From the IMG/VR virus record IMGVR_UViG_3300044971_000080, positions 1-25,495 of that record: a stretch of 25,495 bases of DNA; one strand, written 5' to 3'. Below, piece by piece: positions 6,251-25,474 of this stretch. The DNA is from a virus. The notes beneath the pieces are model-generated. The model did no database searches, was not told the origin of the DNA, and saw only the letters and a list, made by a program, of their open reading frames with translations. A program made the position numbers and the translations under genes. Position 1 is the stretch's first letter; each line of letters begins with the position of its first letter.

Positions 6251-7153
6251 TTAGCCTATGCGATGTGGACGAATTGGGTACTGACCTGACAACTTGGAAC
6301 TCTCTTCGTTGAGTCTTTGTTGATAGAGAGCAAAGATATACTTTGATACAGAAGTACCTGCAGTAGATGGTGTCTTAGTATCTGCTGCGTCTGCTTCTGC
6401 TGAAGTAAGATTGACTCGTCCCGCATCAATATATGAAAGCATCTTGTAGGCTGCGCCTAATATAACTACGTCTCTGCAAGATGCTGGCAAACCAGACACT
6501 GTAGTAAACTCATCTGATGAGTTGCTTAAAATTTCTGGAGCCTTTCGGTACGCTACTTGTATTGTGCGACCTGCTGTAATTCTGTCACGAATAGATACTG
6601 AATTGCCTGATGGGAATGCAGTTGTATTTGCTACTGGGTCTAGACGCCAGTTGGTAATTGGAATCCATTCCTTAGAAGGTCCGATAGATTCCCACGATAG
6701 TGTGGTTATATCTTCGGTACCCACTGGCAAAGGATAAGTGGTAACTGCTGGATTATATGTAAGAGTAGTTGTTGCATTTGTCCATAACTTAGGATACAAA
6801 GAACTAATGGTGTCATTGATTGCTTGTTTAACTGACATTCTAGGAAATGATGGAGCAAGAATAACTGGGGCATATTGATTGTGCGCTACTGCAGTTGAAT
6901 GCTGATAGCCACGACCAAAGCCAGGCATAATTGTTAGCGTGTTAGATGCCTTGTCATAAGTATCAACAAGAATCAATTCATCATCAATCTCAATAATACC
7001 TTTTGCAAGGTTACTAGATGAACCAACAGTCACACTTGTGCTTGAATTTGATATACCACCAGCGTTTGCTAGATATGTAATTCTATCTTGGCGAAGGGTG
7101 TAACCCTGGAGGTTTACTTTAACCTCGTCAATCATATCTGATAATGTTGGCAT
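6251..7153 (-). CDS. Head-tail adaptor (connector) protein
   Basis: This 300-residue protein has an N-terminal helix (SDMIDEVKVNLQGY), then a beta-rich insert (about 35-100) containing GIIEIDDELILVDT and PGFGRGYQHSTA. The rest is mixed, with the PRMSVKQAINDTISSLYPKL helix, a YPLP-type turn, and a C-terminal helical segment (about 215-290) rich in Ala, Tyr and charged residues. This resembles adaptor proteins that ring the lower face of the portal in short-tailed phages (P22 gp4 / T7 gp11-like role), and related proteins are annotated as head-tail adaptors in phages of actinobacteria. The N-terminal insert with the EIDDE/LIxVD pattern is shared with fibre proteins and may be a docking domain. 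Its start overlaps the previous stop as TAATG. Confidence 0.7.
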   Translation of the reverse strand: MPTLSDMIDEVKVNLQGYTLRQDRITYLANAGGISNSSTSVTVGSSSNLAKGIIEIDDELILVDTYDKASNTLTIMPGFGRGYQHSTAVAHNQYAPVILAPSFPRMSVKQAINDTISSLYPKLWTNATTTLTYNPAVTTYPLPVGTEDITTLSWESIGPSKEWIPITNWRLDPVANTTAFPSGNSVSIRDRITAGRTIQVAYRKAPEILSNSSDEFTTVSGLPASCRDVVILGAAYKMLSYIDAGRVNLTSAEADAADTKTPSTAGTSVSKYIFALYQQRLNEESSKLSGQYPIRPHRIG

Positions 7154-7398
7154 TAATTACCCTTTCGCGCTTTTGCGGTTTTTTTGGCTATTGCTTTAGG
7201 TTGCTTTACAAACTGCTTACCCTTTGCATTGCCTGCAGCCTTTGCTCTATTGGTAGCGGCTTTTTCGGCAGGCGTTAATGACGCCCACGCTGCTTCGGGT
7301 AAATATCTTTTTTTACCTTTTGATGGTTTACCATCAGAGGTTTTCCACTTTTGTTTAGTCCAGTCTTTTAAAGACTTCTGAGATTTAGCAAGTGCCAT
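7153..7398 (-). CDS. Small basic conserved phage protein
   Basis: This 81-residue protein is strongly basic (many Lys, few acids). Its N-terminal motif KSLKDWTKQKWKTSDGKPSK is followed by RYLPEAAWASLTPAEKAATN and a tail GKQFVKQPKAIAKKTAKARK. The SLKxWTxQxW, RYLP and GKQFVKQP blocks are familiar from small proteins of many environmental phages and some large DNA viruses, where the function is not known. A nucleic-acid role is likely from charge. It overlaps both neighbours as TAATG, so it is translated with the adjoining small basic genes. It could be a virion protein that neutralises packaged DNA, but this is inference. Confidence 0.72.
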   Translation of the reverse strand: MALAKSQKSLKDWTKQKWKTSDGKPSKGKKRYLPEAAWASLTPAEKAATNRAKAAGNAKGKQFVKQPKAIAKKTAKARKGN

Positions 7399-7586
7399 TA
7401 CTTGTAGCCTCCGCCTGCTTTTTTATATTCAACAGCAAGTAGTTGAGCCTTACGGGCAGACCATTCGCCAGGGTCTCCACCCTTGGAGCCAGCCTTAATC
7501 TTCTTAAACAAAGAAGCACGCATAGTAGGTTTAGTGTAATTACCTGCTGCATTTACTTTAGATTTAGTTTTCTTTTTGGCTACCAT
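7398..7586 (-). CDS. Small basic protein with SARKAQLLAVEYKKAGGGYK tail
   Basis: This 62-residue Lys-rich protein has an N-terminal AKKKTKSK tract, then VNAAGNYTKPTMRASLFKKI, a KAGSKGGDPGEW linker and a C-terminal SARKAQLLAVEYKKAGGGY. The block TKP-x-x-R-x-x-L/I-F-x-x-IKAGxKGG-x-PGxWSARKAQ is a recurrent small module in environmental phages and large viruses, with unknown function. Its start codon lies inside the preceding gene (7-base overlap, ATGGTAG). Together with the 81-residue and 85-residue neighbours it forms a conserved-looking trio of basic proteins between capsid and adaptor genes. Confidence 0.72.
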   Translation of the reverse strand: MVAKKKTKSKVNAAGNYTKPTMRASLFKKIKAGSKGGDPGEWSARKAQLLAVEYKKAGGGYK

Positions 7587-7837
7587 TTTACTTTATCCGC
7601 CCAGTAGGCTGCTGACATTTTGCCCTTGGCAATATTCTTTGCGTGACGGGCTTTAAAACTTGCTTGACGTGCCGTTGGTTTTCTATCGCCAACTACTCCC
7701 TGCTGACCAAAGCGAATAGTTTTAACCTTATCGCCTTCTTTAGCCACAACAACGTGTGACTTGGTTGGATGATTTGGTGTGCGCTTAGGCTTATTAAAGC
7801 CTGACACTCCTGCTCGCTTTAGTCTAGGGTCGCTCAT
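7580..7837 (-). CDS. Small basic protein with RQASFKARHAKN...ARYW-like motif
   Basis: This 85-residue basic protein has N-terminal DPRLKRAGVSGFNKPKRTP, a short middle part VVVAKEGDKVKTIRFGQQGV, then a C-terminal block RQASFKARHAKNIAKGKMSA followed by AYWADKVKW. Phage proteins with the F-x-x-RH...K-x-x-AxYW-x-x-K-x-W pattern are common and usually carry a Cys-containing version (RHNC...SCKMW). Here the Cys positions are Ala, so a metal role seems lost or absent. Function is unknown. The start overlaps the upstream stop as TAATG. The segment NPRLKR in the upstream 54-residue protein resembles the start DPRLKR here. Confidence 0.72.
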   Translation of the reverse strand: MSDPRLKRAGVSGFNKPKRTPNHPTKSHVVVAKEGDKVKTIRFGQQGVVGDRKPTARQASFKARHAKNIAKGKMSAAYWADKVKW

Positions 7838-8001
7838 TATCCTTTAACTCTCTTTAGTCTAGGGTTTTTTTTCTTTGCAGCAGCAGACGCTTTGCGTGCT
7901 CCCGCAGCAACAATCGCACTGGCTTTCTCTTTGGAGATACCCTGCTTCTTGGCTATTCCTGCAGCAACTGCTTTGAATCCAGGATGTGCTTTTTTCTTCA
8001 T
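7837..8001 (-). CDS. Very small Lys/Ala-rich protein (54 residues)
   Basis: I translated this gene by hand. It begins MKKKAHPGFKAVAAGIAKKQ and ends KKKNPRLKRVKG, stopping with the TAA at 7837-7839. It is rich in Lys and Ala, with a helical middle (GISKEKASAIVAAGARKASA). Its ATG (7999-8001) overlaps the upstream stop as TAATG, and its own stop overlaps the next start in the same way. That precise packing on both sides is the main reason to accept so short a gene. The central pattern HPGFKAVAAGIAKKQGIS recurs in small phage proteins. A DNA-binding, histone-tail-like role is an inference from composition. Confidence 0.7.
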   Translation of the reverse strand: MKKKAHPGFKAVAAGIAKKQGISKEKASAIVAAGARKASAAAKKKNPRLKRVKG

Positions 8002-8222
8002 TACTTTTTCCTTTTTATCTGCTTACCTGTTTTGTCATCATAACGACGACCTTGTAAAAGGGCGCCAATGAGTTGTCCCATTTGGTTATCACTAGCCTTG
8101 TTTGCTGCAATAGCACGGGCATCAGCACCAGGATTATAATCAGCACTGGCATTGTAAGATTTTTGCCAAGCCTTTGCAGATTGTTTTGCTTCTTTCATAA
8201 GGTTTTCTAGGTAACTAGCCAT
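8001..8222 (-). CDS. Small helical hypothetical protein
   Basis: This 73-residue protein has an N-terminal helix (ASYLENLMKEAKQSAKAWQK), a middle SADYNPGADARAIAANKASD, then QMGQLIGALLQGRRYDDKTG and a basic KQIKRKK end. It is less extreme in charge than its neighbours, and the C-terminal helix-turn is amphipathic. The start directly abuts the upstream stop (TAAATG) and the stop overlaps the downstream start (TAATG). No known domain is recognised. Its place within the small-gene run suggests a virion or morphogenesis accessory role. Confidence 0.68.
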   Translation of the reverse strand: MASYLENLMKEAKQSAKAWQKSYNASADYNPGADARAIAANKASDNQMGQLIGALLQGRRYDDKTGKQIKRKK

Positions 8223-8348
8223 TTACTTCTTCTTTGCAGTCTTCTTAACAGCCTTCTTCATTGGCTTGCCTGTCTTCTTGGCTTCAGCCTTGGCTGCTTT
8301 CATGCCCTTTGCTGTGTATGCAAATTCTTTCATTCCTACTTTTGGCAT
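8223..8348 (-). CDS. Tiny Lys-rich protein (41 residues)
   Basis: Translation by hand gives a 41-residue protein beginning MPKVGMKEFAYTAKGMKAAK and ending KKAVKKTAKKK. Lys makes up about a third of it, in KKA/AKK repeats like the tail of histone H1. The motif PKVGxKxFxYTxKGxxAAK is a known pattern in very small phage proteins. The start overlaps the upstream stop as TAATG and the stop abuts the next ATG. A DNA-condensing or capsid-lining function is plausible from composition but not shown. Confidence 0.7.
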   Translation of the reverse strand: MPKVGMKEFAYTAKGMKAAKAEAKKTGKPMKKAVKKTAKKK

Positions 8349-8464
8349 TATTTTTTCTTTCCCATCTTCTTAGGCATAGCCTTCTTAGCGGACTTCTTAA
8401 CCATAGACTTCTTTGCTGGCTTCTTCTTCATCATCATGTCCATCATCATTTTGTCTTTCATCAT
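8348..8464 (-). CDS. Tiny Met/Lys-rich protein (38 residues)
   Basis: Translation by hand gives 38 residues built almost only from Met, Lys, Ala, Pro, Ser, Asp and Gly. It starts MMKDKMMMDMMMKKKPAKKS and ends KKAMPKKMGKKK. Nine Met fall in the first twelve residues or so, which is very unusual. Two tandem ATG codons (8462-8464 and 8459-8461) could both start it. It lies one base after the stop of the 149-residue gene and overlaps the next start as TAATG. This fits a real gene in the small-gene run; its low complexity lowers confidence. Confidence 0.62.
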   Translation of the reverse strand: MMKDKMMMDMMMKKKPAKKSMVKKSAKKAMPKKMGKKK

Positions 8465-8465
8465 T

Positions 8466-8915
8466 TTATGCTCCCAGTTCTGTCATAACTTGCGCGGTTT
8501 TTTTATCTATATGCTTTGCATTTGGGTCCTTCTCAGCATTGTAAGCCCTACCCAAATTCTCTGATGCCTTCTCTGCAGCAACTATCTTTTCCATAGTGGT
8601 TCCTGCTGGTTGGATGCCTTGTCTACGGGCATCTCTATAGGCTTGTAGTTCGCCTTCCCATTTACGTTTTGGCATTGCCGCTCTGCTATTAGCATCACCT
8701 GTGCTCAGTTGTAATCCTTTAGCCTTACACCCAAAGCAAGGGTTAACCCCACAATTGCTATGGTCTGCTGCAAAAATTTCTTCTTTGCTAACAAATGGTT
8801 TAGGTGATGTAGCGTCACACTCAGTGCATCCGTATAGAGATACATACTGATTCATCTGACCATCTTTTAATTCATATGCCCAATCAAGAACCTTGCTCTT
8901 GTGGTCGCACTCCAT
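8466..8915 (-). CDS. Cys/His-rich conserved phage protein
   Basis: This 149-residue protein has an N-terminal metal-site-like part: C3, H5, C30-x-x-C33, H52, C55, C60-x-x-C63 (HSNCGVNPCFGCK). A helical, charged C-terminal part (about 80-149) follows, with the block YRDARRQGIQPAGTTMEKI and a following KASENLGRAYN helix. The HxxCGxNPCFGCK plus QGIQPAGTT combination recurs in phages of actinobacteria downstream of capsid genes, without known function. Zinc binding is inferred from the cysteine spacing. The Shine-Dalgarno is a G-rich stretch (AGGGGGC) before the ATG. It leads the block of tiny basic genes. Confidence 0.74.
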   Translation of the reverse strand: MECDHKSKVLDWAYELKDGQMNQYVSLYGCTECDATSPKPFVSKEEIFAADHSNCGVNPCFGCKAKGLQLSTGDANSRAAMPKRKWEGELQAYRDARRQGIQPAGTTMEKIVAAEKASENLGRAYNAEKDPNAKHIDKKTAQVMTELGA

Positions 8916-13462: not shown

Positions 13463-14700
13463 TATTGAACTCCCATCATCTGCTTATACACATCATAAAA
13501 GCCAACCATTTGTGTGGCTTTGGCTTCATCTGTTTTAGCAAGTTCTTCAATAAGGAACTGCTGTGAGTTCAAACCTGTTCGTCTGCTAACTGCTTCAGAA
13601 CTACCATCTGCACCAGGGGTTGAAGTTGTTACTTCTGGCGTTTTGCGCTGAGCCTTCTCAAGAATAGGCTGTAGTTTTTTTAATTCCTTTGGACTTAGTT
13701 CACGCTCATATAGTGCTCGACCAACTTCTTGTGCTAATGCACGGAAGTCTGTATCGCTAAACGTTGTTGTCCGTGTAGTAGTTGTGCTACCACCACCACC
13801 CTTTGGGCGGTTAGACATGTACTCATCAAGGGTAGGAAACTCTTTAACGCCGTAATTCTTATAGGCACTAATCTGCTCATAGGTGTACTCGGCAATAATT
13901 TGATTAAGAGCCTGGTCAACTGCGCCAGACGGAACATTCTTGTTTGTAGTAAGAAGCCCAACTTCTTTAAGACGGTCTACTAATTGCTGCTTTCCGCCAT
14001 ATTGTTTTACAAGTTGCTTTATGTACTTGTCACGGATTACATCCGTTGTACCAAACTCAACACCCTTTTCTGTTTCACCTGTAGTTACTAATTGACCACC
14101 AGAATAGGCTGTTGTTCCTTTAGTACCTGGCTCTACATAAAGAAACGCTTCATAAACAGTAGGGTTTCCTCTAGGGTCCAACTTGTTAGGTTCTGTAACC
14201 TGAACAACTGGACCAGATGGACCGATTGATGTACCAGCACTAGCAATGTAGTTAGCCAGTTGCTCCGCGTTTGTCATCTTTACAGATTGACCAGCGTCTT
14301 TACCTTTTTTATTAGTAAGACGCTCAATTTTATCTTCAGCCTTTTTAATGGCTGCATCATCCTGTAAGTCCTTAGCAGCCGTTAGTTCTTCTTTGGCTTT
14401 TGCTAAGTCTTCTTTAGACTTCTTAGTATTTTTTTCTTCTTGTTTTTTAGTTTCTAAATCCTTTAAATCGTTCTTAAGTTTATTAATCTTAGGCTGCAAC
14501 TCTTCTTCTATTTTATCGAATTCAGCCTTGGCTGGACCAAATGCTTTTTTGGCACGGTCATATGGTATTGAACCAACCTTGTACTGTTTCATATTATAGC
14601 CAGGAGCACCGCGTCCATACACCTTGAGGCGGGCTTTCTCTAACTTTGTAGAAAGGCTAGACAACTCATTCTCTAGTTTTACTTTTGTAAAGTCAGGCAT
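13462..14700 (-). CDS. Coiled-coil virion-associated protein (412 residues)
   Basis: The first 135 residues or so are a long coiled coil rich in Lys, Glu and Leu (for example EELQPKINKLKNDLKDLETK and a KAKEELTAAKDLQDDAA run). A globular middle (about 140-305) contains TVYEAFLYVEPG and TRTTTFSDTDF at its end. A helical C-terminal segment (about 312-412) carries LYERELSPKELKKLQPILEK and ends with YDVYKQMMGV. It overlaps both neighbours as TAATG, so it is likely made in step with the 1693- and 299-residue proteins. It probably assembles with them. Function is unknown beyond that. Confidence 0.7.
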   Translation of the reverse strand: MPDFTKVKLENELSSLSTKLEKARLKVYGRGAPGYNMKQYKVGSIPYDRAKKAFGPAKAEFDKIEEELQPKINKLKNDLKDLETKKQEEKNTKKSKEDLAKAKEELTAAKDLQDDAAIKKAEDKIERLTNKKGKDAGQSVKMTNAEQLANYIASAGTSIGPSGPVVQVTEPNKLDPRGNPTVYEAFLYVEPGTKGTTAYSGGQLVTTGETEKGVEFGTTDVIRDKYIKQLVKQYGGKQQLVDRLKEVGLLTTNKNVPSGAVDQALNQIIAEYTYEQISAYKNYGVKEFPTLDEYMSNRPKGGGGSTTTTRTTTFSDTDFRALAQEVGRALYERELSPKELKKLQPILEKAQRKTPEVTTSTPGADGSSEAVSRRTGLNSQQFLIEELAKTDEAKATQMVGFYDVYKQMMGVQ

Positions 14701-17700
14701 TATACCTCCGCCTTATATGTGTCTCTTGAGTAGTACTTTAAGATTGAATTGAATATTGCTCTAGCAGCCTCTTGAACTGCTGGGTCTCCATTACCTAGTT
14801 CAAAGATAATCTTGCTTACACGGTCACGATACTGACGCTTCAATGTAGAAGCGTTGTATAGAGAACGAACACTTTCATCCTTTGAGAACTTGATAAAGTC
14901 TTCCATAGCCTGAACTGCTGTCTTCATTTTTATTACAGTTCCTTCAGCGATACCGCTTTCTGGATTCATAATCATTTCTTTAACACTTGCAAGCATGCGC
15001 TCTTCAGTACCAATCTCATTACCGCCACCTGTAATTGCGGTCAGTAGCAAAGGATTAGAACTAAGAAGACCCTGACGGGCAGCAGTTGCTGTTTCGATAA
15101 TCTTCTTGCGCTCTGAGATTCTAGTTTCTTTACCCAAAGACTCTTTTTGCCAGGATGCTACGTCGTAATACTTCTGCTTATCTTGGGCAACCATTACATC
15201 GTCGTAGTATTTTTCTATTGTCTTATCCTCTAGAAGACCAGTTGCATTGAGCCAGTTGTATACACCAGCATTAAAGTCACCAGAGTTAGGAGCAAAGATA
15301 TATGCTGCTTCACCATATGCACCAACTAGGTTCTTATTATTAATAGCCCAGTTACGCATTTCTTTTGTCTTTGCCATAAGAACTTTAGTCTGCTTCTCAT
15401 CACGACTTACTGTGTAAGCAATCTTTCCTGGGTACTTACCAGTAAACAATGTAAGTGCCATCTCATATGGGTCTTGAATCTCATCACCATACTTAGACTT
15501 GATTGATTCAAAGATATCCCAGAACTCACTACGCAAACCAGTGATTCCTACATCTAGTATATAGTCTGGAACCCCTTGGCTTTCCTGTGCAGTTGGTGTA
15601 ACTGGTGAGATAAGACCCAAGATTGCACGCATAGCCACAATGTTATGTGCTGATATACGGATGTTCTTTAGGTACTGATACTTCTCTTCGTTAGTTGAGT
15701 TAGCATCTAAGAAGCGACCTGCTGCTGCGTTATATGCAATTGCTTGCTGTGCTGCAGTAACTTCTTGACGTGTCTTCTCATTAACTGGAAGTACTTGATA
15801 AAGTTTAAGTAGTGTAGAAGGAACTACTGCACGGACAATATCCATGTTATCGCCAATAGAACCAAGGGCGTAGTTGTCTAATTCTTGAGCAAAAACTTCA
15901 GAGCCAGGCACTGGCACATTACTAATAATAGGCTTCATTAACAACACACCAAGTGCTGCAATAGGACCAGAAAGTGTAGGCAAACCTGCATCAGGTGAGA
16001 AAGATGGGTTAGCCATGGTTAGTTTAAATGTAAAGTCATTAAACATTGGCTGCTTATACCCGTTGTCAGTACCTGGTGTAAGTGCACGAATAGTTGTATC
16101 TGTAGCCTTAAAGATAATGCTATCCATTGGCATCATTACATATGGTTCGCCTTCGGCATCTTCATAGATAGAACCACTGGCATTTAAACCTTGATGCGCT
16201 AGACGCATACGGTATAGAACGCGTGGAGATACATCCTTCAAGCGGTACATACGGCGCTGAAAGTCTTCAGTTGCACGATAGAAACGACCTACTGTGCGGA
16301 TAGATACAGCAAAGTTGGAACGGATAGATGGGTTATCTGCAAACTTTAATACTGTATCTGCAGCCTGTTCCATAGACAATTCGGTGAAACGCTTTTCTGC
16401 CATTACATTAGCACGCTCACGTGCACGGGCTTTAGCCTGTGGTGATGAGTACTTAATAGGGTCTGAATCAATCATACCCTTATAGACTTTATCTGCGTAA
16501 GCCTTTTCAATACCAGAATAATTCTTACGTAAATGTAAGTATGAAACCATAACTGCTGGCTGACGCAAGATACCGTTAACTTGCTTATCCATTAACTCCA
16601 TCATCTTGTCTCCAGTGCGCTTATATGCACTTTCCAAGTCTGTGAAGTTAGGAAACTCTACGCGAGTATTAATAAATCCTCTAGGTTGAAAGCCTTTAGT
16701 GGCATCCTCAAAGGTATCAATGTCAACAGATGCAGCAGCCTTCTGCCACTTGCCATTAATTTTAACGCCTGTCTCTATTTCTTTAGCCTTTAGAACATCG
16801 TAGTTCTTGCGAACGGCATCATATAGATTTGCGTTATATAGGTTAGGACCACCATGGAAGTTATCACGCATATCCATCAACATACGGTTGACATAGATAG
16901 ATGCAATCTCTTCGTCAGTCTTTCCCATTTGGCGTTGAAATACTGTGTCACTAAAGTATGAAAGGAACTTCTGAACAGCCGCTTCATTACCAGGGGTCTT
17001 AACAAAGAAGCCACCATCGTTCTTTGTAAAACCTAGGTACTCCATCATGCTGTCGCTGGCACGTACTAAATCATCTGGAGTACGCAAAGCGTTGTTAGCA
17101 AAGAATGCAACTGCTGGTGCTACTCGATAGTTATCAGGTAATTCTAACTTTCCATGCTGACGTGGTGTTGCAAAACGGATATACCAGTTATCATAGTGAG
17201 CAAGGGCAACGTATTTAGGATTAGCAGCACGTAGTTTATCTACGTCAATCTCGCTATACTTGCCAAACTTAAACTTTTTACCAGTTACTTCTTTACCAAT
17301 GCTGTTAAGAGCCTTGGTTAATTCAGATATATTAATCTGTTCTGAAAGAATCTCATCATCAAAACGACCACCTAAAGATGTACGTGCTGAGATAGAAGAA
17401 GCCATAGAACCCAAAATATCTGGGTGGTGAACCATAGCCTGAGTCCAGTATCCGCGAGCCTCGTCGTCTAATCCCTTTAAGAATATAGCAGCACGGGCTG
17501 CAATCTCTTGATTAATTCTAAGATGGCTAAGTTCTGCTGGGCTTACGCCTTCTTGCTTAGCAATCTTCTCAATAAGTTCATTGCGTGCTTCAACACCCAT
17601 GTAATCTGATGGTGCTTTTTTGAATGTCTTGCTCATTACACCAGCAATAATACCTTCAGCACTTGCAGAACCAGTGTATGCGCTAGAACCGCGACCTAAT

Positions 17701-19781
17701 CTACGTCCCTCACCCTTAGCAAAGGATAATAAATCCTTAGCAGGTGCAGTAAGTGCATACATAAAGCCTTCGTCAATAGCAGAACGGATACCAAGACGTG
17801 GGAAAAGCGTAAAGATAGACCAGAAGTCAACGAAATCTTTTGCCCACTTAGACTTTGTAGCACCTTTAGCAGCCTTCATAAGGCTTGACTTGGAACGAAT
17901 CTCATTTGCTTTAATAGCAATGTCTTCTAAAGGTAGCGGACCAATAGCACCAGCCAACTGTGATGGCTGAATTGCTCCAGCAGCATTCATAACTGGCGTT
18001 TCGTTTTCGAAACGAAGTGAATCCTTTGGCATTACGTTGGCAAAGGCTGGGTCAATCTCTGTCTTAACAGTAGTTGTAAATCCAGCACGCTCATTAAGCG
18101 TCTTCTTTAGGACTTCCTGCATAAGTTGTTGACCTTCTGCGTTATCACCTAGTCCTGCACGGTGCATAACTGCTGCATAAAGGTTACGAACAATAACAAC
18201 TTGCTCATCTTCGCTAGAAGTTAGGAACTTTTGCGCCATAAAGTCAGCCATATCACGGCTAACTACTAAGCGTGCTACGTTTCTAAAGGTATCAATTGTC
18301 TTAACTGCTTCGTCACCAATAACAATTTGCTGTCCTGCTGGGTTACGTGCAGCCATCTGACCCATTTTGTATCGCAACTTGTTAATATCCTGGTCAATGT
18401 CAAAAAGTTCTTTGATGTTTGGATTAACAGCCTTATCTGTTTCCTCACCTGACTTACGAAGAATGTCATATATCTGTTCTCCAGATGCATCTAGTTCTTC
18501 TGTAGTCTTGCGTGGACCAGCACCAACACGGGCATTGAATACTGAATCAAGATAGTTATTAAGACCAGATGCCATACGGCGTTGGTTACGAGCAGTAGCA
18601 ATACCATTGCGTCGGTATGTAATACCATCAACACGACCAGATAGTAGGAGTCCTACGTTCTCTGCTTCGCTAAATATTTGCTCTGCACGCTGTGCATTAA
18701 ATACCTTGTTCTTAACCAGGAAGTTAATTGCTTCATCGTTGTTATATCCAGCATAACGACGCCCAATCTCGCGACGAACAACCGCTTTTGCTGCAGCGCC
18801 TTCGGCATTAGCCATACGCTCAATGTCTTTACCAAGTTGTTCATCCCATAACTTAACAACAGACTTATCTTTGAACGCTTGACGCACACCATAGGCTACG
18901 TCTCCACTTTGAGAAGCCTTCATTACTGTCTCGGCAAGTTGAGTGCCCTTACGTGCACCAGCAACTGCTCCACCAGATAGCCATGTAAATGGGTCTAGGA
19001 CAATTTGATAAATAAAATCTACTGCACCAGATGCAAACTGTGCTTTTCCGTCAATATAGTCAACAGAAATACCACCATTCTTAGGTGGTTTAGTCTCAAA
19101 CCAGCGAATAATGTCACGACCAGGAGATACTTGTGCCATCTTTGTTGCATCAATAACATTTTTAAACTGGTCTGGATTATTAAATGCCTCTTCTACAGCC
19201 TTAGTAATCTCAGGCGTAAGACTTCCGTATGCTTCTAAGATTTCTCCAGGCTTTTTGCCAGCAAGTAATCCTTTTGCTACGTATACGTTAGCCTTACCAT
19301 AAACATCAGTAGCAGCCTTAAGTGAACCGTTGTCATATACGTCAGTTCCATCCCAAGCATCTGACCAGACACTAGCATCAAAGATGCTTTCGCCCTGTGC
19401 TACCTGACGTGCAACCAAATAAGGTGTGTTAATTGCTTTGCTATAAGCACCAGCAACTTTAAATACACCAATCAAAGGAGATGCAAGAAGTTTTGCACCA
19501 AACTTTAACGCACCAATAGCACGGTCGCCAAAATCTGGTGGTTCTTGCATGTATTCTTGATTAGAGAAAAAGAACTTTAAACCTTCTTGTGCGTCTGGGT
19601 CTAAACGATTGAACTCATCTCTAGCATCGTCAGTGCTCATGCGATTAAGTTCACGATTCTTCTTTACAGACCAAGCCATCTGTTCGATATTGTTCTGTTC
19701 TGCTGGAGTCATGTTCGCACGTTGTGCTGCTGTGTAGAGGTTGGGAGAAACTTCAGCAACAATAGGCTTTAGTACTCTCAT
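14700..19781 (-). CDS. Giant 1693-residue phage protein, function unknown
   Basis: This is the largest gene in the window at 5.1 kb, a fifth of the sequence. The protein is mostly predicted helical by composition. It has a weakly hydrophobic stretch at about residues 88-113 (LKFGAKLLASPLIGVFKVAG), others around FVDFWSIFTLFPRLGIRSAI and GPIAALGVLLMKPIISNVPV, and no signal peptide. A C-terminal region with SAHNIVAMRAILGLISPVTP, VPDYILDVGITGLR and NPLLLTAITGGGNEIGTEER looks conserved in kind with large proteins in other environmental phages of actinobacteria. I see no protease, transglycosylase or toxin motif. Placement between portal and scaffold genes, size and amphipathic segments suggest an internal virion or DNA-ejection protein. 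A head-linked minor protein is the alternative. The Shine-Dalgarno AGAGG precedes the ATG by seven bases. Confidence 0.8.
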   Translation of the reverse strand: MRVLKPIVAEVSPNLYTAAQRANMTPAEQNNIEQMAWSVKKNRELNRMSTDDARDEFNRLDPDAQEGLKFFFSNQEYMQEPPDFGDRAIGALKFGAKLLASPLIGVFKVAGAYSKAINTPYLVARQVAQGESIFDASVWSDAWDGTDVYDNGSLKAATDVYGKANVYVAKGLLAGKKPGEILEAYGSLTPEITKAVEEAFNNPDQFKNVIDATKMAQVSPGRDIIRWFETKPPKNGGISVDYIDGKAQFASGAVDFIYQIVLDPFTWLSGGAVAGARKGTQLAETVMKASQSGDVAYGVRQAFKDKSVVKLWDEQLGKDIERMANAEGAAAKAVVRREIGRRYAGYNNDEAINFLVKNKVFNAQRAEQIFSEAENVGLLLSGRVDGITYRRNGIATARNQRRMASGLNNYLDSVFNARVGAGPRKTTEELDASGEQIYDILRKSGEETDKAVNPNIKELFDIDQDINKLRYKMGQMAARNPAGQQIVIGDEAVKTIDTFRNVARLVVSRDMADFMAQKFLTSSEDEQVVIVRNLYAAVMHRAGLGDNAEGQQLMQEVLKKTLNERAGFTTTVKTEIDPAFANVMPKDSLRFENETPVMNAAGAIQPSQLAGAIGPLPLEDIAIKANEIRSKSSLMKAAKGATKSKWAKDFVDFWSIFTLFPRLGIRSAIDEGFMYALTAPAKDLLSFAKGEGRRLGRGSSAYTGSASAEGIIAGVMSKTFKKAPSDYMGVEARNELIEKIAKQEGVSPAELSHLRINQEIAARAAIFLKGLDDEARGYWTQAMVHHPDILGSMASSISARTSLGGRFDDEILSEQINISELTKALNSIGKEVTGKKFKFGKYSEIDVDKLRAANPKYVALAHYDNWYIRFATPRQHGKLELPDNYRVAPAVAFFANNALRTPDDLVRASDSMMEYLGFTKNDGGFFVKTPGNEAAVQKFLSYFSDTVFQRQMGKTDEEIASIYVNRMLMDMRDNFHGGPNLYNANLYDAVRKNYDVLKAKEIETGVKINGKWQKAAASVDIDTFEDATKGFQPRGFINTRVEFPNFTDLESAYKRTGDKMMELMDKQVNGILRQPAVMVSYLHLRKNYSGIEKAYADKVYKGMIDSDPIKYSSPQAKARARERANVMAEKRFTELSMEQAADTVLKFADNPSIRSNFAVSIRTVGRFYRATEDFQRRMYRLKDVSPRVLYRMRLAHQGLNASGSIYEDAEGEPYVMMPMDSIIFKATDTTIRALTPGTDNGYKQPMFNDFTFKLTMANPSFSPDAGLPTLSGPIAALGVLLMKPIISNVPVPGSEVFAQELDNYALGSIGDNMDIVRAVVPSTLLKLYQVLPVNEKTRQEVTAAQQAIAYNAAAGRFLDANSTNEEKYQYLKNIRISAHNIVAMRAILGLISPVTPTAQESQGVPDYILDVGITGLRSEFWDIFESIKSKYGDEIQDPYEMALTLFTGKYPGKIAYTVSRDEKQTKVLMAKTKEMRNWAINNKNLVGAYGEAAYIFAPNSGDFNAGVYNWLNATGLLEDKTIEKYYDDVMVAQDKQKYYDVASWQKESLGKETRISERKKIIETATAARQGLLSSNPLLLTAITGGGNEIGTEERMLASVKEMIMNPESGIAEGTVIKMKTAVQAMEDFIKFSKDESVRSLYNASTLKRQYRDRVSKIIFELGNGDPAVQEAARAIFNSILKYYSRDTYKAEV

Positions 19782-20224: not shown

Positions 20225-20491
20225 CTATAACTCCTCATCGTAATCATCATCTGTGCCAATGTTTTTAGTTCTTAGCACGTCACTGTTGTATTCTTCAGCC
20301 ATCTTCATCATTCCATATGCATTCCATGGCGTCATCTCTTCACTTACTTCTGTATGTAAGTAACGATTCCCACTGTAATCTGCCCACTCGGTAACTAAAA
20401 CCCAGTTAGCACATATGTAATCAGATGTTTCGCCCTCTTCTGCAACGAGAGTAGCGATTGCTTCTTCCATCTTTTTTGTAAACTTACTCAT
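20225..20491 (-). CDS. Small acidic hypothetical protein
   Basis: This 88-residue acidic protein ends in a DDDYDEEL run. The centre has NWVLVTEWADYSGNRYLHTE followed by MTPWNAYGMMKMAEEY. A W-x-LVxEW-x-D-x-xGxRxL...PWxxxGM pattern of this type is frequent in small phage proteins, without known function. The start overlaps the stop of the Ntn-hydrolase gene by eight bases (ATGAGTAA), so the two are probably translated together. A role as partner or regulator of that enzyme is a guess from this link only. Confidence 0.66.
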   Translation of the reverse strand: MSKFTKKMEEAIATLVAEEGETSDYICANWVLVTEWADYSGNRYLHTEVSEEMTPWNAYGMMKMAEEYNSDVLRTKNIGTDDDYDEEL

Positions 20492-21053
20492 ATTGTGTCA
20501 TAACAATAATTGGTTGAGCCGTATGTATGTCCCACTTAGACGCAATCGTAATTGCGTTTCTTACCACCGATTCAGCACCCTCTGCTTCGAGGTACTGATA
20601 CTCACCCAACAATGCTTCCATAGCACCAAGGGCAATGTCGCCACCGCTGCCAGAGTAATAGATACCACTAGTATCGCGGTCCCAAGAGTAATCTTCAAAG
20701 ACAGGATAGATAACTCCCCGCACAACAATAAGAAACGATGAATCGTGTTCCGCAACATCCCCGTCTTCTTTCATATCATAACCAGCGTCAATAAATAATT
20801 TACGCATTGACGGAATAAATTTTTGAGTTACAAACTTATCTAAGTTTTCAGATGCAGTTGGCTTGGGTGCTTTCCACCCAAACTGCAAAAGATTTGAACC
20901 ACGACTTGCACCAGAACCAGCAATTAAGATTCCGTTATTCTCGATAATCTTGTGAGTAGCAAGGTTCATAGGGCGACCTGATTCATCAGATGAACGTGAG
21001 TCGCATCCAATTACAGCCCAACCGTCGCCTTGAATAGCAGCAAGTGTTGTCAT
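20484..21053 (-). CDS. HslV/proteasome-like Ntn hydrolase, candidate head maturation protease
   Basis: This 189-residue protein reads as a full proteasome-beta/HslV fold. Met1 is followed directly by Thr2-Thr3, so Met removal would expose the catalytic Thr with no propeptide. Asp18 in VIGCDSRSS matches the family Asp17 (mature numbering). Lys35 in HKIIENNGILIAGSGASRG matches Lys33 with one extra residue. The later YSGSGGDIALGAMEALL (around 132-148) matches the GSG serine loop, and the WDIHTAQPIIV segment gives the family's late Asp. It is encoded right after the portal, where phages usually place the prohead protease, and no other protease is seen. It has the best Shine-Dalgarno noted in the window (AAAGGAGG). 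I infer a self-compartmentalised peptidase that trims scaffold. No HslU-type unfoldase is seen here. Interference with host proteolysis is the alternative. Confidence 0.82.
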   Translation of the reverse strand: MTTLAAIQGDGWAVIGCDSRSSDESGRPMNLATHKIIENNGILIAGSGASRGSNLLQFGWKAPKPTASENLDKFVTQKFIPSMRKLFIDAGYDMKEDGDVAEHDSSFLIVVRGVIYPVFEDYSWDRDTSGIYYSGSGGDIALGAMEALLGEYQYLEAEGAESVVRNAITIASKWDIHTAQPIIVMTQYE

Positions 21054-22824: not shown

Positions 22825-24717
22825 CTATCCATAATTCTCAGCCCACTGTTCAGAGAAGGCTTCGTCTAGATTAATTGAGTACCTTTGAGATGCTTGTGCT
22901 CTCGTAGTCCAACGGTTATTTGTAAACTTTGCTAGATGATTTGTTTGCTGCATAAACTCACGTGCTCTTAGAACCGCAAACCATAACGCCATAACACAGT
23001 CAGTCTTGCCACGTGTGTTCGGCTTCCAAGTTATCAACTGTTGAGTAAGGGCTTTAAGTCCCTCTGAACCTTCAGTAGATGGAAGTTCTATCATGTTGTT
23101 CTTTTGGAATTTTTCTTCACGCATAGTTCCAAATAGTGTTGACATAGATGCCACACCAAAGGATGCGTCCCATTTGTTTTTGTTAGTTACATGGGATTCA
23201 AGTCGAACTCCATACATACCCAACCACTGGCGAAGGTCATCGTCTAGTGAGTAGGCTTTCTGGTGTGCGTTGATTTCCACGCGAAATTCTTGTGGCTTGT
23301 ATTTGATTACAAGTTCTTCAATAGTTGCTCGAATTTTTTGCGGGTTGGGTTCACCCATGTTGATGCAGTCTAAAACATAAATTTTAGAATCGGACCTGTT
23401 GTAGGTAACTACACAAAATGCAGCATGGGCTTTATCTCCCATCGCTGGGTCAAAGCCTATGATTGTGTAACCTTCAGCAGCAGTCGGATGTCCCACCGCG
23501 CCTGGGCGCAAGGGTCCGCGCCTACGTTGTCCATTGGTACTACCTTGCACCAAGGCGGGCGGGAAGATGGAATCTTCTTCGACATCCTCTTGCTGATAGA
23601 CCAGTGCCCACGTATTAGGTGTTACTTCACCTCTGCGCTTGAATAATGCTTTGCCGTCCCACTTCGGGTATAAACCATTTTCGTCAGGAGTGTCTTCGTC
23701 GCCGTCCCAAGGAACATCACTCTTCGCCCAGAGCGTAACCCACTCTTCTGGTTTGTCACTGTATTCCAATACAGCAGGCATGCCCATATAAGTAAAAGGG
23801 CTTTTGCCATTAGACCAATATTTCGGGTTCCGTAATTCTTTGTAGAAGTCCTGTGCAGCAATTCGCGTCCCTACGATTAATAACTTACCGTTCTTACCCA
23901 AACGGGTAATAACTTCTTTCTGCAGCCAGTCAATCTGCTTTTCAAACTCATGGGCGTTAGCAGTAGTAATGCAGTCGTCCAAGATAATCAGGTCAGCACG
24001 TGCGCCGTAAATCTGACCCCCCATACCCAGTGCTTGAAGGGTTGGGTCTTTCTCGCTTGAGTTTCTCGCATCACCCCCAAGGTAGACGGTATCAACTCGC
24101 CAAGTATCTGAGTCTTCTTTCCAGCCCCCTTCAGGACCAAAAGTTGTTTGCAACTTTGTCCAGCGTGGGTGGGATAGTCTTTGCTTGATTGCGTACACGA
24201 ACTCGCGTGCTTTGTTTAGCGTCTTAGAGACCACGATGATGCGGACGTTAGGGTTGAGGGCAATGCGATAAGTTGAGTAGTTAACTGTAATGACAGTGGA
24301 CTTGGCGTGCTCAGGGGGCACGTTAATTAGGATACGTGTCTTGTCGCCTGGCTCGTAAATTATAGAATCGTGGAGCCATGAAGGGGCACGGTCCTCTAGG
24401 AGGTCAATCCAGTTAAGGTGGTGAGGAAAAGGTTTTTGGTCTAGGAACATTTCCGAGAACTGGGGGAAGGTAATATCCTCCCTTGCTATACCAAGCGCCT
24501 TAATCGAATTCGATTTGGCGTCAGAGGTAGCCTGTTCTAGGTCAGCGGCAAAGGTAGCATCTCGCATCATCCAGATTCGAATGGTGTCGGGCTTAGAACC
24601 TATTTCCTCCATCGCCCTTTTGGGCGACATGCCTTCAGAGACAAGGGCAATGACTTTCTTTTTTGCCTCTGCGCCTGCCAGTTTTTTGGGGTTATTAGCC
24701 CCCTTTTGAAAAGTCAC
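22825..24717 (-). CDS. terL: Terminase large subunit with N-terminal HTH
   Basis: I start the gene at GTG 24715-24717 (630 residues). The frame is open further to a TTG at 24783, but that extra part would overlap the hairpin at 24734-24765. A helix-turn-helix of small-terminase type lies at about residues 18-55 (VSEGMSPKRAMEEIGSKPDT). The ATPase follows: Walker A variant PPEHAKST (134-141), Walker B LIILDD (243-248) and a GTR coupling motif (283-285). A RNase H-like nuclease then has Asp423 in GFDPA, Glu481 and Asp573 in TDCVMALW as the likely metal ligands. It pumps DNA into the prohead and cuts the concatemer. A separate small subunit is not seen; the fused HTH may serve for DNA recognition. 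Confidence 0.9.
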   Translation of the reverse strand: MTFQKGANNPKKLAGAEAKKKVIALVSEGMSPKRAMEEIGSKPDTIRIWMMRDATFAADLEQATSDAKSNSIKALGIAREDITFPQFSEMFLDQKPFPHHLNWIDLLEDRAPSWLHDSIIYEPGDKTRILINVPPEHAKSTVITVNYSTYRIALNPNVRIIVVSKTLNKAREFVYAIKQRLSHPRWTKLQTTFGPEGGWKEDSDTWRVDTVYLGGDARNSSEKDPTLQALGMGGQIYGARADLIILDDCITTANAHEFEKQIDWLQKEVITRLGKNGKLLIVGTRIAAQDFYKELRNPKYWSNGKSPFTYMGMPAVLEYSDKPEEWVTLWAKSDVPWDGDEDTPDENGLYPKWDGKALFKRRGEVTPNTWALVYQQEDVEEDSIFPPALVQGSTNGQRRRGPLRPGAVGHPTAAEGYTIIGFDPAMGDKAHAAFCVVTYNRSDSKIYVLDCINMGEPNPQKIRATIEELVIKYKPQEFRVEINAHQKAYSLDDDLRQWLGMYGVRLESHVTNKNKWDASFGVASMSTLFGTMREEKFQKNNMIELPSTEGSEGLKALTQQLITWKPNTRGKTDCVMALWFAVLRAREFMQQTNHLAKFTNNRWTTRAQASQRYSINLDEAFSEQWAENYG

Positions 24718-24733
24718 AGAACTGTCCCATCCT

Positions 24734-24765
24734 CTACTGTTAGACTGTTTTGTAACAGACAGTAG
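24734..24765 (-). repeat. Hairpin just upstream of the terminase ribosome site
   Basis: CTACTGT pairs with ACAGTAG, and CTGTT pairs with AACAG inside it, leaving a four-base bulge and a four-base loop. On the minus strand its 3' foot touches the AGAGGATGGGA element that serves as ribosome site for the terminase GTG, so folding could affect terminase translation. Confidence 0.55.
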
Positions 24766-24779
24766 ATACAGTCTGTAAC

Positions 24780-24799
24780 GCAAGTCTTCTAAGACTTGC
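24780..24799. repeat. Perfect palindrome GCAAGTCTT-n2-AAGACTTGC
   Basis: Nine-base arms with two central bases, without mismatch. There is no T-run after it on either strand, so it is not a usual terminator. It could be a dimeric repressor site or a stem of the folded RNA. Confidence 0.65.
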
Positions 24800-24800
24800 T

Positions 24801-24833
24801 ACTATATAAAAAATAAAACAGCCTCTATATAGT
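24801..24833. repeat. Inverted repeat ACTATATA / TATATAGT
   Basis: Eight-base perfect arms around an A-rich 17-base spacer. A third ACTATATAG copy is at 24911-24919, making this core a repeated element upstream of terminase. Confidence 0.5.
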
Positions 24834-24855
24834 ATTAATCCGTCCAAACAGCCAA
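24826..24855 (-). promoter_or_regulatory. Weak candidate promoter for the late genes
   Basis: On the minus strand TTGGCT (24850-24855) lies 18 bases before TATATA (24826-24831). The fit to a sigma-70-type promoter is partial (four of six at -35). It would start transcription about 100 bases before terminase. Confidence 0.2.
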
Positions 24856-24888
24856 AACGGACGTTTTGCTGGCAAAAATTTTTGCCAG
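24853..24888. repeat. Two back-to-back perfect palindromes
   Basis: CAAAACG-GA-CGTTTTG (24853-24868) is followed without a gap by CTGGCAAAAATTTTTGCCAG (24869-24888). A competing pairing exists: CGTCC (24841-24845) with GGACG (24859-24863) would break the first one. This is the layout of an operator pair or a two-state RNA switch. Confidence 0.65.
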
Positions 24889-24951
24889 ATAGTAAAACCG
24901 CAGGTCAGGCACTATATAGATAGAACTGGTGCACAGGCTATAACTGTACGG

Positions 24952-24996
24952 AAATATTTTGTAGGTAGATACTACTACACTATTACAAGAATATTT
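24952..24996. repeat. Long stem with one bulge and a small apical hairpin
   Basis: AAATATT plus TTGTA pairs with TACAA plus AATATTT, twelve pairs with a single bulged base at 24989. Inside it GTAG-ATA-CTAC can form a second small hairpin. Confidence 0.6.
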
Positions 24997-25033
24997 AACA
25001 GTCTGGGGTCGATGAACGACCCACAGAACTGTC
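24997..25033 (-). repeat. Two-part stem-loop with a G.U pair on the minus strand
   Basis: The inner stem is GGGTCG-ATGAA-CGACCC (25006-25022). The outer stem pairs 24997-25002 with 25028-25033 and contains a 24997/25033 pair that is A.C on plus but G.U on minus. The outer stem can extend by four A-T pairs if the neighbouring stem (24952-24996) is open. Confidence 0.6.
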
Positions 25034-25040
25034 AAATGCT

Positions 25041-25066
25041 GTCGCTCTGTACTGATAGAGAGCGAC
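25041..25066. repeat. Perfect hairpin GTCGCTCT / AGAGCGAC
   Basis: Eight perfect pairs around a ten-base loop. It is not followed by T on either strand. Confidence 0.6.
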
Positions 25067-25136
25067 TGTTACGGATAGCAATCTGCGGGCTAGACTAGAC
25101 AGTCTGCGCCCCAGTCAGATAACTATTCCGTTACTA

Positions 25137-25154
25137 ATAAATAAATTTATTTAT
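25137..25154. repeat. A/T-only perfect palindrome (18 bases)
   Basis: ATAAATAAATTTATTTAT is fully self-complementary. As DNA it would melt easily, as in an origin. As RNA it is a weak stem. Confidence 0.6.
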
Positions 25155-25197
25155 GTCTGCCGATGGTGTTCAAACCCTCGCACCATCCACCGCAGAC
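25155..25197. repeat. Two-step stem-loop GTCTGC..GATGGTG / CACCATC..GCAGAC
   Basis: An outer six-pair stem and an inner seven-pair stem are separated by an asymmetric internal loop (one base against four). The 12-base apical loop contains TTCAAACCC, which recalls a tRNA T-loop but no cloverleaf surrounds it. Confidence 0.6.
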
Positions 25198-25229
25198 CAA
25201 TGGTCGTAATCCGTCCTATGATTCGAGGT

Positions 25230-25260
25230 CAAAGGGAACGCGCCTGCTTTGTTCCCTTTG
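25230..25260. repeat. Perfect ten-pair hairpin CAAAGGGAAC / GTTCCCTTTG
   Basis: Ten uninterrupted pairs around an 11-base loop. It is one of the most stable single stems in the region. Confidence 0.65.
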
Positions 25261-25283
25261 CCCCGCAAATCAAAGGCGGACCA

Positions 25284-25320
25284 GACGGCGATACAATTCT
25301 CTAGAATTGATATCACCGTC
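25284..25320 (-). repeat. Long stem with one G.U (minus strand) and one bulge
   Basis: GACGG..GATA..CAATTCT pairs with AGAATTG..TATC..CCGTC. The pair 25289/25315 is C.A on plus and G.U on minus; base 25310 is bulged. On the plus strand it is followed by TTTT, so a plus-strand terminator is the competing reading. Confidence 0.6.
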
Positions 25321-25359
25321 TTTTACTCATGACCCCTTTGATTATATCTCCATCAGCAA

Positions 25360-25377
25360 AATAGCAAGCGTGCTATT
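25360..25377. repeat. Perfect hairpin AATAGCA-n4-TGCTATT
   Basis: Seven perfect pairs and a four-base loop (AGCG on plus, CGCT on minus). Confidence 0.6.
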
Positions 25378-25381
25378 ACCA

Positions 25382-25418
25382 TGATTCCCGTCACGCCCGA
25401 TGGGCATGACAGTAATCA
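25382..25418 (-). repeat. Long stem with two G.U pairs on the minus strand
   Basis: Read on the minus strand, TGATT, one A.G mismatch, then eleven consecutive pairs closed by a three-base loop. Pairs 25394/25406 and 25389/25411 are G.U on minus and C.A on plus. This is the strongest single case for folding of the minus-strand RNA. Confidence 0.65.
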
Positions 25419-25424
25419 CAGTAA

Positions 25425-25474
25425 CAGCCAGTGCTTGCCATTTCAGTCACCATTAATCTATGACTGCCTGGCTG
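25425..25474. repeat. Nested inverted repeats CAGCCAG / CTGGCTG and CAGTCA / TGACTG
   Basis: An outer seven-pair stem and an inner six-pair stem have a 12-base bulge on one side. It lies near the window edge, so the element probably continues to the right. Confidence 0.55.

Follow-up and report, generated by a model that had tools for sequence, protein, structure and literature searches.

Predicted genome terminus, late promoter and structured leader upstream of the terminase gene in a freshwater actinobacterial phage

The gene-free stretch upstream of the terminase large subunit (TerL) gene in virus record IMGVR_UViG_3300044971_000080 probably holds a packaging and genome-terminus site together with a late promoter and its structured leader, and it likely serves as the divergent control hub for a phage of freshwater actinobacteria, ~38-41 kb in size. 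Support for this reading comes from homology, from fixed spacings, from a match to the known termini of relatives and from covariation in two leader hairpins, P2 and P3.

Genome setting and relatives

The window analysed here is the whole record of 25,495 nt, with genes on the minus strand. The TerL gene (22825-24717, minus strand; PHROG 38, E 8e-70) likely begins at the GTG at 24717; a TTG at 24783 was also considered as the start, and alignment with relatives favours the GTG. In a 97%-identical contig (L003; the figure is that for TerL) the next gene lies on the opposite strand and, after correction for a deletion in that contig, starts ~150 nt past the window end, so the intergenic region spans ~900 nt, mostly inside the window. 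Searching viral contigs with TerL gave 80 relatives, nearly all with homologous upstream sequence, and a scan for one conserved motif gave 99 matching stretches, from which 84 distinct upstream regions were retained. Several contigs close as a circle. The near-complete relatives, of 38-41 kb, have two divergent arms: a leftward early arm with genes for WhiB, a sigma-like factor, primase and a DnaB-like helicase, and a rightward late arm with TerL, portal and other late genes. The element sits at the point of divergence, and the earlier note was right to single out its position before the late operon.

The WhiB gene points to an actinobacterial host. Since the nearest isolates, phages E7 and F5 (TerL identity 60%), infect 'Ca. 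Planktophila' (PMC10202952), the host is probably a relative within the 'Ca. Nanopelagicales'. A host search by TerL in bacterial genome contigs gave no match, and comparison of the element with isolated phages revealed no DNA similarity. Elsewhere in the window, positions 14700-19781 encode a 1693-aa late protein (1750-1880 aa in relatives) that is probably an internal virion protein, with nothing significant in Pfam or PHROG. A gene for an HslV-family peptidase, possibly the prohead protease, adjoins the portal gene (20484-21053), and the stretch 7001-8750, which holds several small genes and gaps of 163 and 243 nt, has a strongly negative AT skew (to -0.43).

Conserved motifs and the predicted genome end

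Reading toward TerL, the conserved order is M1, 23 variable bases, a tail ending in GTACA, a 21-bp dyad GTYC-N13-GRAC, the motif TTAATACTATATAG, P2, P3, an operator-like dyad, GGGACA and TerL. M1 has the 17-nt consensus GACCC(C)AGACTGTTTAA and is near-invariant in 81 relatives; in the window it reads GACCCCAGACTGTTAAA (24994-25010, minus strand). The tail, M2, lies at a fixed distance from it (AAAATATTTCCGTACA; 24945-24960, minus strand). From the start of M1 to the start of GTACA the spacing is 61 nt in 77 of the 81 relatives and 60 nt in the other four, despite the variable 23 bases between M1 and the predicted cut. E7 and F5 share M1, the dyad, the -10 motif and P2- and P3-like hairpins in the same order; unlike the freshwater family they lack GTACA, have a more distant TerL and fold more weakly (z of about -4 on both strands). 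Around 3940-3960 of contig L003 (window about 24835-24955), ~120 nt are absent, among them the P1 dyad and the last part of the M2 tail; this gap is a misassembly, a defective phage or true deletion variant, or an indication that the phage can do without them.

Among the relatives, annotation is best for Streptomyces podoviruses of the Beephvirinae (TerL identity 43-45%). Their records are linear and have TerL as gene 1, and the opening 253-276 bp recur at the other end. Four of these genomes carry direct terminal repeats of 264, 276, 264 and 253 bp, and the 253-bp terminal repeat of FlowerPower and relatives is published (PMC9753666). The repeat end of the Beephvirinae also sits in a divergent non-coding region upstream of TerL, and in Percastrophe, Manuel, WRightOn and FlowerPower an M1-like motif (GACCCCAGGGTTGTTAA in Manuel) occurs exactly 23 nt before it, at GAGTG/AGTCCC. 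These four genomes count as about one lineage because they are related to each other. A profile built from the freshwater family alone, with both strands of 4-7 kb scanned (a 1-kb stretch for FlowerPower), ranked the M1 site first in six of seven relatives (Percastrophe, Manuel, WRightOn, JXY1, E7 and F5); in FlowerPower its match was one register off. Within the freshwater family, the columns at the predicted cut (38-42) are better conserved than the variable stretch around them. Given the M1 match, the 23-nt distance measured or deposited for the Streptomyces phage termini and this rise in conservation, we predict the right end of the unit genome between 24970 and 24971. Terminase would recognise and cut the region ~24945-25010, where a direct terminal repeat would have its right end, and packaging would cut the concatemer 23 nt after M1. 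The window thus shares with the Beephvirinae an M1-like motif upstream of TerL, the distance from this motif to a physical end being known only in the Streptomyces phages.

No position could be assigned to the left repeat end. Two candidates, a conserved GTACAG near M1-50 and a position at the Beephvirinae distance, were rejected as unsupported by E7 and F5 or by conservation. Contig ends are enriched about twofold within 800 nt upstream of TerL (~24 of 55), and the window's contig also ends there, which fits a region that breaks assembly, whatever the reason. Nine contigs (L006, L009, L026, L049, L050, L058, L062, L073 and L076) stop inside one 62-nt stretch, ~70-125 nt to the left of M1. Conservation sets in there, and the cluster may reflect a boundary of structure or of assembly, the left repeat end for example. 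The contigs are fragments or circular assemblies, and a terminal-repeat search in the complete ones returned only exact overlaps of 127-138 nt at other places, which are probably assembly k-mers, together with a near-identical overlap of ~130 nt in contig G009. Counting against the packaging-end reading are the unplaced left repeat end, the gap in L003, the missing GTACA in E7 and F5 and the lack of a sigma-70-type promoter.

The same region could instead be a replication origin, whose palindromes and repeats near the divergence would serve as binding sites for the primase and helicase of the phage and for a DNA-binding initiator. Its site between divergent arms, its palindromes and AT-rich stretches, and the phage's own primase and DnaB-like helicase genes speak for such an origin, which we nevertheless judge unlikely: an iterated initiator site was not found, and the core that is conserved falls where relatives have their repeat end, although both roles can coexist. 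Quite unlikely, in our view, is a divergent promoter and operator region and nothing else, in which M1 and M2 would be regulator sites and the match to the Streptomyces repeat end would reflect shared promoter architecture. The divergent arms, the dyads, the -10 motif and the WhiB and sigma-like genes would all suit it, but it does not account for a repeat end that lies at an identical 23-nt distance in all four genomes, which span three genera, nor for a site that is the top profile match among thousands of positions.

The late promoter and the TerL leader

Between the predicted genome end and TerL, the stretch from 24862 to 24717 would comprise the late promoter, with a dyad and a -10 motif, and the TerL leader with P2 and P3. 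The dyad, P1 (GTCC-N13-GGAC; 24842-24862, minus strand), is a probable activator site whose halves co-vary in relatives, as GTTC/GAAC or GTCC/GGAC. It is followed by a -10-like motif, TTAATACTATATAG (24825-24838, minus strand), that occurs essentially once per genome and is the putative late promoter. Both the dyad and an AT-rich -10 are retained in E7/F5 and in Manuel. A scan for sigma-70 promoters including the -35 box found nothing; with no -35 box, the dyad likely serves an activator, for which the WhiB or the sigma-like protein of the phage may be a candidate. A T7-type promoter was considered and rejected: the TAATAC...TATAG spacing is wrong, and the early arm showed no evident gene for a phage RNA polymerase. 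The late transcript is predicted to begin just after TTATCTTATATG, at P2.

The P2 hairpin position (24800-24824, minus strand), weak in the window and strong in relatives, gave a covariation score of 0.741 versus 0.253 in shuffles. For the adjoining leader hairpin P3, GCAAGTCT-taga-AGACTTGC (24780-24799, minus strand), the score was 0.646 versus 0.194. P3 occurs as 25 distinct stems in ~180 loci, all fully Watson-Crick, and both sides change in six of its eight pairs. These alignments comprised distinct hairpins only, in a register set by hand, so both scores lean toward structure. Pairing rather than sequence is maintained at P2 and P3, as the covariation supports. Their wobble-free pairing could reflect selection, either for a stable leader hairpin or on the DNA, or else template-switch correction of palindromes. 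Between 24650 and 25495 we found no intrinsic terminator (GC stem plus T run), and with no T run after them P2 and P3 are not intrinsic terminators. Between P3 and TerL lies the operator-like dyad GTTACAGAC-N10-GTCTGTTAC (24752-24779), recognised from sequence and alignment.

P2 and P3 would stabilise or regulate the late transcript. In put leaders of the HK022 type, two hairpins just after the promoter allow RNA polymerase to read through terminators. The position and pairing of P2 and P3 fit this layout, and their stem sequences vary. P2 and P3, placed just after an apparently single late promoter, might act as a put-like cis-acting RNA through which RNA polymerase can transcribe the late operon in full, or else the left hairpins might be DNA structures used in forming the second genome end, a role proposed in T7; we regard this pair of ideas as quite unlikely. 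T7 terminal-repeat processing is the subject of Chung et al. (1990), as cited in PMC4925675. For T7, a DNA hairpin was reportedly proposed to take part in end formation. The freshwater phages would resemble T7 in having short terminal repeats, a hairpin in end formation being an analogy only, and differ from it in having neither an evident T7-type RNA polymerase nor a T7-like gene order.

Hairpin density, strand signature and the large-RNA proposal

The density of hairpins in the element is well above chance. A strand-symmetric finder counted nine strong stems in the 778 nt before TerL, compared with a mean of 0.75 (maximum 4) in dinucleotide shuffles, and against shuffles the fold of the whole region had z values of -14.3 on the minus and -16.0 on the plus strand. 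In a scan of the contig in 250-nt segments, 24751-25000 and 25001-25250 took ranks 1 and 2 for structure and are structured on both strands, which is unusual within the contig. The earlier note's description of a gene-free, hairpin-dense element was sound, the spurious open reading frames not being retained in close relatives; of its some fifteen inverted repeats, about nine count as strong stems and the remaining ones are weaker.

Nearest the packaging motif, the hairpin GGGTC-gttcatc-GACCC (25006-25022) overlaps M1 with its right arm; its pairing is lost in several clades and M1 is retained. It is followed by GTCGCTCTCTA-tcag-TACAGAGCGAC (25041-25066), found from sequence and by the stem finder, and by a dyad GGGGCGC...GCCC (25087-25112) that marks how far left conservation extends in all clades. 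The left zone contains GATGGTG...CACCATC (25162-25187), identified by the stem finder, a hairpin at 25227-25263 with compensated changes in L003, another at 25283-25321 with a compensated change in L003 and L014, and a near-perfect 85-nt hairpin (25359-25443) whose outer stem is swapped on both arms in L014 and L089. Left-zone hairpins turn over between clades, with 76 hairpins falling into 42 families. In contigs from several clades (L021, L025, L039, L041, L081, L170 and L174), hairpins share a CTTTYCA loop on very different stems, mostly ~170-230 nt left of M1 and ~590 nt in others. At a guess, the left hairpins would function as palindromic DNA close to the repeat's left end, or as sites for replication or packaging proteins.

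The earlier note had suggested that the element could be one of the giant phage RNAs, such as GOLLD and ROOL, or an undescribed class, marked by G.U pairs on the minus strand. The rival reading weighed here is such an RNA, transcribed from that strand over the whole element. Its four named wobble positions are indeed A/C on the plus strand and hence G.U on the minus strand, and the 778 nt before TerL hold seven G.U and no A.C pairs when read from the minus strand. As a mark of RNA this signature did not survive comparison: over 82 relatives we counted 160 G.U and 135 A.C pairs. By hairpin family, the left zone has more G.U in 17, more A.C in 11 and equal numbers in 14; families in the middle zone lean the opposite way (G.U:A.C 4:8), and the right zone is almost wobble-free. 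The wobble changes of the window are common to L003, L007, L008, L014 and L089, and its 7:0 bias is a matter of few changes inherited in one clade.

Folding strength is likewise equal on both strands in 23 relatives, with z values in the three zones of -3.9/-3.6, -3.2/-3.1 and -3.6/-3.9. An alignment-wide consensus fold of 46 sequences was weak on both strands. Covariation across clades occurs only in P2 and P3, and no single fold is conserved along the element; selection for pairing, as had been proposed, is supported for these two leader hairpins, which covary strongly, and the other parts of that interpretation fail. At the gathering score no Rfam family, GOLLD and ROOL among them, matches the window or 14 relatives, and a search by E-value gave only chance microRNA hairpins. 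GOLLD and ROOL resemble the element in length, in their lake or phage setting and in their many stems; the element differs in having no Rfam match, no strand preference and no element-wide conserved fold. An undescribed class of large RNA fares no better, given the turnover of the left hairpins and the equal folding of the strands. Structure is thus selected or generated in the element, and because the wobble pairs are balanced, the z values equal between strands and the left hairpins replaced between clades, DNA palindromes fit the data better than one strand-specific RNA. Very strong folding, the 7:0 bias in the window and several hairpins with compensated changes are what a large RNA has in its favour, and it is very unlikely all the same, since conservation in the element is best in sequence motifs that keep a fixed spacing. 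In a single genome, dense hairpins and a handful of G.U pairs do not amount to evidence for a large RNA.

Relation to Streptomyces phages and significance

The likeness to the Beephvirinae (Percastrophe, Manuel, WRightOn and FlowerPower) lies in a repeat region directly upstream of TerL, divergent and non-coding, in the M1 motif and its distance to an AAA..TTTCC tail, and in a dyad with an AT-rich -10 in Manuel and WRightOn. Unlike them, the freshwater phages are AT-richer, have many more hairpins and a shorter intergenic region (~0.9 kb, compared with 1.8-2.1 kb), and their ends are predicted only.

The analysis predicts, to the base, where the genome ends and where the late promoter lies in a widespread, largely uncultured family of freshwater actinobacterial phages, and this prediction is testable in the isolated phages E7 and F5. 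In addition, a short packaging motif at fixed spacing ties this freshwater family to the podoviruses of Streptomyces.
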